NCBI GenBank assembly: GCA_021734255.1
Contig: JAIPJM010000023.1
Location: 1-43,098, forward strand
DNA length: 43,098 bases
Reading direction: 5' to 3'
Source of the DNA: Fidelibacterota bacterium
GTDB taxonomy: Bacteria > Fidelibacterota > UBA8477 > JABMPR01
In this document: positions 10,774 to 11,228 of the stretch, piece after piece
Position numbering within the stretch: position 1 is the stretch's first letter
Layout: each line of letters opens with the position of its first letter
Notes under the pieces: generated by a model
The model's database searches: none
What the model was told of the DNA's origin: nothing
What the model saw: only the letters and a program-made list of their open reading frames with translations
Translations under genes and position numbers: made by a program

Positions 10774-10886
10774 GCCACCAGTCTACGCCTTTTAGGCTTC
10801 GCCTGGCAGGCCAAGGAGAATCGAACTCCTGATCTACTATGATTGCTTTGCTCTACTAATTGTCTGTCCGACGAAACCTGAGTGGG
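10774..10886 (-). pseudogene. decayed tRNA-Thr copy carrying two palindromic insertions
   Basis: On the minus strand the segment from 10861 down to 10813 aligns to the D-loop-to-T-arm part of the neighbouring tRNA-Thr (AATTAGTAGAGCAAAGCAATC and CAGGAGTTCGATTCTCCTTGG). Upstream in sense it carries CTCAGGTTTCGTCGGACAG, the 3' half of the D-arm element seen at 11070-11111. Between T arm and acceptor (10780-10812) is a second insertion with a GCCTTTTAGGC hairpin, after which the acceptor GCCACC reappears at 10774-10779 (plus strand). Most changes from the intact gene are transitions, as expected of old decay. Confidence 0.7.
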
Positions 10887-10933
10887 AATAACTTCTTCAA
10901 TCTTCAATCAATTAATCTTCAATCCGAAGTCTG

Positions 10934-11006
10934 AGCCACCAAGGAGAGTCGAACTCCTGACCTACGCATTACGAATGCGTTGCTCTACCAACTGAGCTAT
11001 GGTGGC
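10934..11006 (-). tRNA. tRNA-Thr (anticodon CGT)
   Basis: All 73 bases fold into a cloverleaf on the minus strand: acceptor GCCACCA/TGGTGGC, D stem GCTC/GAGC, anticodon stem ACGCA/TGCGT with loop TTCGTAA (anticodon CGT at 34-36), T stem AGGAG/CTCCT with loop TTCGACT, and discriminator T. CCA is not encoded. It is the only intact copy among three interrupted relatives, all in the same orientation. Confidence 0.96.
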
Positions 11007-11061
11007 ATTTCAAAACTTTTGTCGTTCATCGGTCTCTCAACCAGGACCACGAACCTGTTGA

Positions 11062-11123
11062 ACCAACTGCCTGTCCGGCGAACCCTGAGCGAAGTCGAAG
11101 GGGCAGACGGAAGCTATGGTGGC
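11062..11123 (-). pseudogene. tRNA-Thr copy interrupted in the D stem by a 42-bp element
   Basis: On the minus strand the tRNA 5' part GCCACCATAGCT (11123-11112) is followed by the element (11111-11070) and then by CAGTTGGT (11069-11062), the exact next bases of the tRNA. The insertion thus lies between tRNA nucleotides 12 and 13. The flank TTGAAAT before the 5' end is shared with the intact gene, so flank and gene were duplicated together. The 3' half (11062 down to about 11040) keeps only traces such as CAGGTTCG. Confidence 0.8.
11070..11111 (-). repeat. 42-bp tRNA-interrupting palindromic element (Thr copy)
   Basis: The core CCCTTCGACTTCGCTCAGGG matches the element at 42177-42219 in the tRNA-Arg copy. 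The two agree over most of their length, differing in a few flanking bases and one length change. It is related to dispersed palindromes of the CCTGAGC..GTCGAAGG type, which I recall from many environmental bacterial genomes. It encodes nothing. It contains GCTCAG, the same hexamer as its insertion site in the D arm. Confidence 0.8.
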
Positions 11124-11191
11124 ATTTCAATATGGTGTTCCCTCAAGTAGCACAGGGATCACAAACTCTTTCTACTCACTGCCACTCGTGA

Positions 11192-11228
11192 AACTGTCAC
11201 CCTGAGCGGAGTCGAAGGGTATGGTGGC
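11192..11228 (-). pseudogene. second tRNA-Thr 5' fragment with shorter element
   Basis: The minus strand reads GCCACCATA (11228-11220), then CCCTTCGACTCCGCTCAGGG plus TGA (11219-11197), then CAGTT (11196-11192), the tRNA sequence after the D-stem GCT. The element is 23 bp and replaces GCT. Further in sense direction, traces of the T arm are visible near 11160-11175. Its 5' end is 105 bp from the next copy's 5' end, close to one tRNA plus the element. Confidence 0.65.

Follow-up and report, generated by a model that had tools for sequence, protein, structure and literature searches.

Copies of tRNA 5' ends split by hairpins point to a so far undescribed palindromic element entering tRNA genes

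Upstream of intact tRNA genes in the window (the whole 43,098-nucleotide stretch of DNA analysed here), in related genomes and in several phyla lie copies of the gene's own 5' end, split by a short palindrome that sits mainly between tRNA bases 12 and 13 and in one orientation. The copies occur singly or in arrays, and at tRNA-Thr(CGT) and tRNA-Asp(GTC) orthologous loci are found both empty and filled. Split 5' copies of this kind point to a hairpin element, not described so far, whose entry into a tRNA gene is accompanied by regeneration of the gene itself. Single-copy tRNA genes are essential, yet in three genomes about one in six bears traces of an insertion into its own sequence, and the graded series from no unit through one unit to arrays illustrates the ways in which essential genes can serve palindromes as landing sites. 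We account for the units by a non-autonomous REP-like palindrome that enters the D arm, with the tRNA 5' end regenerated downstream and arrays amplified later, a reading whose chances we put close to even. The units offer a route to the enzyme moving short palindromes in Patescibacteria and Neomarinimicrobiota, and they are a caution for tRNA annotation and assembly.

Broken tRNA copies in the window

Two models served to describe the units: R1 is a model of the palindrome alone, and R2 is a composite of tRNA bases 1-12, palindrome and bases 13-20. Both were trained partly on this genome and its genus and on the loci of the exact-pattern scan described below, and their matches there are partly by construction. 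The tRNA-Thr(CGT) locus of the window, read on the reverse strand, comprises:

10772..10779 (-), 3' end of the downstream tRNA-Thr copy (GGTGGCTC), checked base by base
10780..10812 (-), 33-bp palindrome splitting the downstream copy near its 3' end, at 66^67
10813..10862 (-), decayed tRNA bases ~13-66 of the downstream copy, 4 bases shorter
10863..10886 (-), 3' half of a D-arm palindrome preceding the downstream copy
10933..11006 (-), intact tRNA-Thr(CGT), by ARAGORN and by Rfam (71.8 bits for 10934-11006)
11062..11069 (-), tRNA bases 13-20 after the palindrome of the proximal upstream copy, checked base by base
11070..11111 (-), 42-bp palindrome at tRNA 12^13 of the proximal copy (R1 match, 25.5 bits)
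11112..11123 (-), tRNA bases 1-12 of the proximal copy, exact on base-by-base check
11195..11219 (-), 25-bp palindrome of another family (CCCTTCGACTCCGCTCAGGGTGACA) at 9^10 of the distal upstream copy
11220..11228 (-), tRNA bases 1-9 of the distal copy, checked base by base

All the parts described in an earlier note on this DNA, one intact tRNA-Thr(CGT) and three relatives, exist when checked base by base. Its clearest copy (11062-11123) reads as it had been described, with tRNA bases 1-12, the 42-bp palindrome and bases 13-20 following one another with zero bases lost; it is matched by the composite model R2 at 57.5 bits, this unit being itself a training row of R2. The outer stem of its palindrome belongs to the tRNA-linked family discussed below, and nested inside it is a dispersed CCCTTCGACTTCGCTCAGGG core. 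The distal copy had been said to carry its element at the same place; the break there falls after base 9 rather than 12 and the palindrome (11195-11219) is of another family, a similar palindrome being found at the same place (9^10) in a copy beside the same tRNA in a related locus (L069). As claimed, the downstream copy (10774-10886) keeps half a palindrome and most of the tRNA, and it also holds a second palindrome (10780-10812) that had been overlooked and that R1 matches weakly, on the opposite strand (E 0.51). The flank TTGAAAT, thought to be shared by the copies, is common to the intact gene and the proximal copy and absent from the distal one. DNA folding of a 101-base stretch including the proximal copy was no better than that of shuffles.

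Copies of the 3' end downstream of tRNA-Thr were also seen by eye in five other loci (L065, L066, L068, L070, L072), as at 10780-10812 of the window; they have a CTWCG-like palindrome in the acceptor strand, in the opposite orientation, next to (C/A)AG there.

A second site had been reported in a tRNA-Arg copy at 42165-42242, and its plan is indeed the same as that of the proximal Thr copy:

42165..42176 (+), upstream tRNA-Arg(TCT) copy, bases 1-12, exact (R2 match 42165-42227, 46.1 bits)
42177..42219 (+), 43-bp palindrome at 12^13 of the tRNA-Arg copy, with the same nested core as at Thr
42220..42242 (+), tRNA-Arg copy, bases 13-35, with 1 mismatch (base 15)
42299..42373 (+), intact tRNA-Arg(TCT), by ARAGORN and Rfam

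Two further open frames near this end of the contig were judged by eye. A 77-aa frame at 42642-42875 (-), a few hundred bp past tRNA-Arg(TCT), resembles the C-terminal end of a tyrosine recombinase (LTNGLRRTFGSKLVQSGVDIYVVSKLLGHSSIRVTEQAYIHLL), and an IS3-like orfA start at 43035-43098 (+) (MTKRKRRNHSPKFKAKVALEA) runs off the contig end.

Upstream copies across the tRNAs of three genomes

The surroundings of all 39 tRNA genes of this genome (G000) were compared. For 10 of the 39, the 12 bases that begin the gene recur upstream with no more than 1 mismatch; for tRNA-Ser(CGA) the upstream copy is 10 bases long. A shuffled control for this pattern gave 0 matches. Arrays occur at Pro-GGG (4 units of 57 bp), Ala-CGC (3 of 126 bp) and Arg-CCG (4 of 118-130 bp). 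Each copy has a palindrome at its break, mostly of the type TCCGYCTWCG..CTWCGRCGGGACARG, after which the tRNA resumes at base 13 except in one truncated Arg-CCG unit. Breaks away from this site are those of the distal Thr copy (9^10) and of tRNA-Ser (10^11), the latter too falling just before CAG.

When two congeners (G006, G013) are added, 31 upstream copies of a gene's own bases 1-12 are found, belonging to 21 of 119 tRNAs, compared with 0 for the reverse complement and 1 for the reversed sequence as controls. Copies were counted at 12 matching bases, a 10-base search including chance matches (e.g. G006 Arg-CCT), and the counts exclude rows of the gapped tRNA pattern that arose by chance or from an ordinary tRNA preceded by TAGCT. 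A palindrome of ~30-45 bp sits at 12^13 in 25 of the 31 copies; 24 of these palindromes are of one family and orientation, and one (G013 Arg-CCG) is another sequence. The remaining six copies break elsewhere, three at base 11 and one each at 18, 26 and 28. Because the Val-TAC and Ala-GGC copies of G013 pass 12-13 unbroken, the duplication can exist without a D-arm palindrome.

Copies were found for 17 of the 60 tRNAs with CTCA at bases 11-14 versus 4 of the 59 others (Fisher P 0.003), and three of these four are Pro tRNAs with CGCA. Insertion thus goes with CA at tRNA bases 13-14.

Several other features of tRNA surroundings were recorded. A TCCCGAC..GTCGGGA hairpin replaces the anticodon arm in the broken copies of L031 (Val-TAC), L047 (Ala-GGC), L239 and L259 and in the downstream copy of L044, a hairpin-for-hairpin exchange. 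Four tRNA-like matches (G012:C96:8008-8060, G012:C31:6305-6357, G012:C11:3150-3198, G006:C33:8805-8852) span model positions 8-10 to 63 and have no acceptor arms. Some tRNA genes lie a few hundred bases from contig ends (G000:C5, C29, C41, C49 and several contigs of relatives), and tRNA-adjacent repeats may break assemblies.

A palindrome family with a variable inner stem

The inserted palindromes are 29-46 in length. In 46 of them, outer arms TCCGYC / GRCGGGA enclose a TWC-type 3x3 internal loop, inside which lies a stem whose sequence varies; this inner helix covaries, with 37 cells changed on both sides, and the named structure outscores every slid version. The part linked to tRNAs is this outer palindrome (TCCGYC..GRCGGGACARG).

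The earlier note had instead taken the 20-bp core (CCCTGAGC..GTCGAAGGG) as the element. This core occurs 3 times in the window (0.07 expected), more often than by chance. The whole genome has 18 matches to this core at up to 1 mismatch, three of them the tRNA copies of the window and one more with a tRNA within 1.5 kb, so most cores lie away from tRNAs and this claim fails on the very ground the note had named as refuting it. We rejected the core as the element; it is a dispersed repeat merely nested in the outer palindrome in the window. Insertion guided by homology through GCTCAG is likewise not supported, as the hexamer (on either strand) is present in 3 of 57 distinct inserted palindromes and the others share the site without it. 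What holds, and extends to many isoacceptors and several phyla, is the proposal of a small palindromic element at one main D-arm site beside a tRNA copy that stays intact.

In its own genome, R1 (which includes palindromes of this genome) gave 44 matches at E<=1 with 150 of the 765 first-look candidates scored, and 29 at E<=0.01 on the same candidates. Since 17 of these 29 lie upstream of tRNAs and 12 elsewhere, the palindrome is a dispersed REP-like family concentrated at tRNAs. The 12 non-tRNA palindromes have no fixed left flank, and CAG comes next in only 3. Two similar stretches on one contig (L180, L181; G000:C50) show a palindrome of the same family in a non-tRNA setting, directly after a terminator-like hairpin.

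Distribution over genomes and phyla

An exact gapped pattern (tRNA bases 8-12, palindrome, bases 13-19) was scanned against 84,980 species genomes and returned 38 matches in 35 stretches. By title, 17 of these stretches come from Patescibacteria groups, 8 from Neomarinimicrobiota, 4 from Ignavibacteria, 2 from Bacteroidetes, and 4 are labelled plain 'bacterium'; all genomes known by name in this analysis are MAGs or uncultured. An intact same-strand tRNA lies within 420 bp downstream of 33 of the 38 matches, and 23 of the 33 agree fully with its bases 1-7, though the pattern does not include those bases; agreement with the gene is 0.57 over the 8-base flank and 0.46 over bases 21-27. The same pattern had 0 exact matches in viral contigs (IMG/VR), and for a phage collection (152 records) the 8 matches listed cover the intact tRNA-Thr part only.

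R2 found matches in 18 of 18 source genomes. In its own phylum at least 35 of 199 genomes have matches at E<=1e-5 under strict filters, including 14 of 19 of the genus; this figure includes 3 genomes (G083, G044, G089) with hairpin-only matches. At E<=1e-6 and again with strict filters, matches occur in at least 37 of 379 genomes (2 of them, G452 and G443, with hairpin-only matches) of the phylum of a Peregrinibacteria MAG, Patescibacteria. Sixty composite loci were read, several of which share an array or had served in training. An intact tRNA follows 57-306 bp downstream in 54 of them; 5 run into a contig end and 1 has no tRNA. Bases 1-7 of copy and intact tRNA, with a one-base shift allowed, agree at 7/7 in 40 of the 54 and at 6/7 in 5 more. 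Eleven amino-acid types are represented (Val 11, Ala 7, Thr 7, Arg 7, Met 4, Ile 4, Gly 4, Lys 3, Asp 3, Pro 3, Asn 1). Within 700 bp of one contig (G466:C8:398508-399186) two composite matches lie on the + strand and two on the - strand, an inverted arrangement.

These distances bear on the possibility that the copies are attL/attR scars of tRNA-integrating islands or prophages. Partial tRNA copies beside tRNAs are described as a usual mark of such elements (PMC9897764), and the tyrosine-recombinase-like remnant seen by eye past tRNA-Arg would fit. Yet no integrase-bearing element lies between partial and intact tRNA in any of the 54 measured loci, where 57-306 bp separate the two; it is moreover the 5' end that is kept, arrays reach up to 4 units, and a hairpin lies inside the copy. 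We accord this explanation an almost negligible probability.

Empty and filled loci and the extent of the doubled block

At tRNA-Thr(CGT), L064, L070 and L075 are free of an insert, and a broken copy is present in L066, L068, L069, L071, L072 and the window; at tRNA-Asp(GTC) the empty loci are those of G006 and G013, the filled ones those of G007, G011, G015 and G016. The 45 bases upstream of the empty gene have a mean identity of 0.75 to the flank of the distal copy and of 0.55 to that of the intact gene, the background for random pairs being 0.53 (sd 0.06), and the distal flank scores higher in 29 of 32 comparisons, 24 of the 32 being from Thr (18) and Asp (6). For the window's own Thr array the corresponding identities to empty orthologous loci are 0.71-0.76 and 0.51-0.56. 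The comparison leaves out L108 (no copy by rule), L067 (Thr without insert) and L065, L073 and L074 (other inserted sequence at Thr, no recognisable copy), and its Met row uses the copy nearer the gene. Aligning empty and filled loci among relatives, as had been proposed, thus shows that at Thr-CGT and Asp-GTC it is the broken copy that has kept the old flank; other tRNAs give little or no such signal, namely Ala-CGC (reversed in 2 of 3), Met, Val-GAC, Lys-TTT and Pro-GGG of G006.

Across 82 locus keys, pre-selected for at most 2 mismatches in bases 1-12 and for CA plus one of A/G/C at 13-15, identity between copy and gene is 0.94-1.00 over bases 1-12, falls through bases 16-21 and is 0.34 at base 22; in the flank, agreement is 0.5-0.6 at -1 to -4 and reaches background by about -14. 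With this average at background after base ~21, the insert is not surrounded by the complete tRNA halves of a functional interrupted tRNA or intron. A block reaching from just upstream of the tRNA to the D loop (about -5 to +20) is present in duplicate, its two copies separated by new DNA; the original promoter side is found beside the broken copy, clearly so at Thr-CGT and Asp-GTC.

Pro-GGG has no unit in G013, one in G006 and four in G000. The Val-TAC copy of G013 is unbroken at 12-13, where that of G000 has 32 extra bases, the palindrome, exactly there; both share an anticodon-arm hairpin (TCCCGACACAAGTGTCGGGA). This one locus pair shows presence and absence of exactly the palindrome, with no target duplication, and fits insertion and loss equally.

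Ordinary decay offers a simpler account, in which tRNA and leader are duplicated in tandem and the redundant copy gathers palindromes common in the genome. Near-full-length copies with several hairpins (L118, Val-TAC, Ala-GGC) are what it would produce, as are the G013 Val-TAC and Ala-GGC copies that have no D-arm palindrome. A simple tandem duplication of leader and gene is nevertheless disfavoured, because it predicts neither the doubled short block nor the old flank on the broken copy: the intact genes of Thr-CGT and Asp-GTC have flanks that do not duplicate the old ones, and copies end sharply near base 20. Most copies, too, have their palindrome at 12^13 in one orientation, and broken copies lie mostly upstream (21 tRNAs at 12-base matches), 3'-end copies downstream being rarer (6 of 119 tRNAs at a 14-base match, a rule that the window's own downstream Thr copy escapes). 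On balance we consider decay somewhat unlikely, though it deserves to be taken seriously.

Concerted change at tRNA-Arg(ACG) and the spacer complements

Seven species have tRNA-Arg(ACG) units whose spacers are similar, and in them base 6 of the gene, the same base of the copy and a complement in the spacer (GCTAC..) co-vary. Their states are C/C/G in G000, G/G/C in G006 and G008, and A/A/T in G007, G011, G014 and G019; in G006 the copy has one more mismatch, at base 4, in G019 the complement has one, and G013 is without a copy. More widely, a reverse complement of tRNA bases ~3-10, scored as 3 of 4 bases beyond the CTAC key, is present in the spacers of 7 of 71 distinct units versus ~0.4 expected. 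A fold-back complement as a general rule was rejected, since only a minority of units have it.

Inverted complements of the 5' part of the tRNA in some spacers are among the marks of replication template switching at a structured tRNA (fold-back or microhomology-mediated), with hairpins copied from elsewhere and no dedicated element. Nested hairpins, spacers from about 5 bases up and a regenerated block near the tRNA 5' end are also in keeping with it. Unspecific switching would, however, hardly yield a conserved family that keeps to one main site and orientation across several phyla, and we regard this route as very unlikely.

The concerted change at Arg-ACG could stem from gene conversion plus hairpin repair, or from selection on pairing. 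In the latter case the copied 5' strand, with its complement in some loci, might compete for acceptor strands and tune tRNA maturation in cis. Bases 1-7 of the copies match the gene while the flanks have drifted, and the co-variation in seven species and the 7 of 71 spacer complements (~0.4 expected) lean the same way. In a predicted minimum free energy (MFE) fold of the Thr copy and intact tRNA, the copy's 5' strand pairs with the gene's 3' strand; this fold shows only competition between the 5' strands of copy and gene, and a single fold is weak evidence, two identical 5' strands being expected to compete equally. Unit presence varies among close species and loci, most units lack the complement, and gene conversion also accounts for the concerted change, which together make an RNA device of this kind distinctly unlikely in our estimation. 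The broader combination, a new class of mobile palindrome that targets the tRNA D arm and regenerates the 5' end, with the leftover 5' strand and complements kept in step and acting in cis on tRNA folding or processing, we would likewise call unlikely. Should a function lie behind the coordinated changes in gene, copy and complement, tRNA maturation would be subject to a novel form of cis control.

Proposed origin of the units

Insertion of a REP-like palindrome with regeneration of the 5' end, the reading we prefer, would proceed as follows. Non-autonomous palindromic elements of ~30-45 bp would enter tRNA genes mainly at 12^13, before CA and in one orientation. The resulting locus would consist of the old flank, tRNA bases 1-12, the palindrome, tRNA bases 13 to ~20, a new spacer and a regenerated tRNA of bases 1-76, such that the essential gene is retained, its displaced 5' end is left behind and a block of about -5 to +20 is doubled. 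More palindromes, of the same and other families, may then enter the redundant copy (at 9^10, in the D loop, anticodon arm or acceptor), and unequal recombination would amplify units in tandem. We infer from the loci compared here both that the palindrome is a mobile element and that duplication and insertion are linked. We know of no tRNA-integrating element that regenerates the 5' end of the gene rather than its 3' end.

As to chemistry, an HUH/Y1-type single-strand reaction seems the most plausible option, favoured because the palindrome's orientation is fixed, it creates no duplication itself and NTAG-CT usually precedes it, much like the GTAG and CT site of TnpA-REP. NTAG plus 2 nt precedes the palindrome in most tRNA copies but is tRNA sequence, and it is absent in Pro (GTGGCG); no NTAG was seen before the non-tRNA copies of the palindrome.

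Search for a cognate Y1 gene

Around Y1_Tnp genes, R1 had 0 matches in 92 kb from 26 loci, which are part of all Y1_Tnp matches. Looked for beside RAYT genes by regex, by eye and by model, the tRNA-linked palindrome did not turn up in the loci fetched, and a RAYT as its owner was rejected for these loci, other palindromes flanking the 14 Y1_Tnp loci that were read. No Y1_Tnp match was found in 3 of 22 element-bearing genomes, among them G216 (5 R2 matches), nor in G005, of the same genus, which has 6 R2 matches.

The Y1_Tnp (RAYT-like) genes of the genus are, by eye, flanked by palindromes of their own from different families (L157, L161, L163-L168 and others), for example ACACCCAACTTCAGTTGGGTG, AACCGTT..AACGGTT and CCCCGCC..GGCGGGG.

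Comparison with known systems

A search of the open-licence PMC literature yielded no published description of palindromes in tRNA 5' copies among the titles and opening lines of abstracts that it listed. The E. coli tyrT/rtT locus resembles our arrays in its tandem repeats, each with a piece of the neighbouring tRNA; it differs in that the piece is the 3' end, lies downstream, is confined to one locus and has no inserted palindrome. Partial and intact tRNA genes also form direct repeats around ICEs and prophages, where about 9-23 kb of element lies between the copies (PMC9897764), rather than 57-306 bp with a hairpin as here.

Other small hairpins offer closer parallels in form. The RHE hairpins of sponge organelles are small, repeated and sometimes inside an rRNA gene, with no tRNA D-arm site or tRNA regeneration among the passages listed from PMC2800124. 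CGTC-tagged palindromic repeats (Di Nocera et al., PMC3733652), for which Bacteroidetes are one of the phyla reported, are likewise small palindromes apparently without a dedicated transposase; their anatomy, a CGTC tag, an 8-9-bp stem and a CCA tail, differs from that of our element, and the 4 mentions of tRNA in that paper refer to protein genes for tRNA synthetases and pseudouridine synthases.

The nearest likeness is to the REP/RAYT system, with its short imperfect palindromes, dispersed copies and no coding capacity, and the palindromes described here do fall within the class of 20-40-bp dispersed palindromes. TnpA-REP uses a GTAG guide beside the palindrome and cleaves at CT, an arrangement that the NTAG-CT usually found before our palindrome resembles, and E. 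coli REPs likewise have conserved stem mismatches (PMC8266576). Some REPs are nested inside other palindromes, as the core is here (PMC3733652). Here, by contrast, the main site is the tRNA D arm, with regeneration of the gene, and the tag would belong to the tRNA rather than to the element. Because no Y1 gene examined is flanked by it, we file the tRNA-linked palindrome as a short palindromic repeat set apart from the REP/RAYT system.
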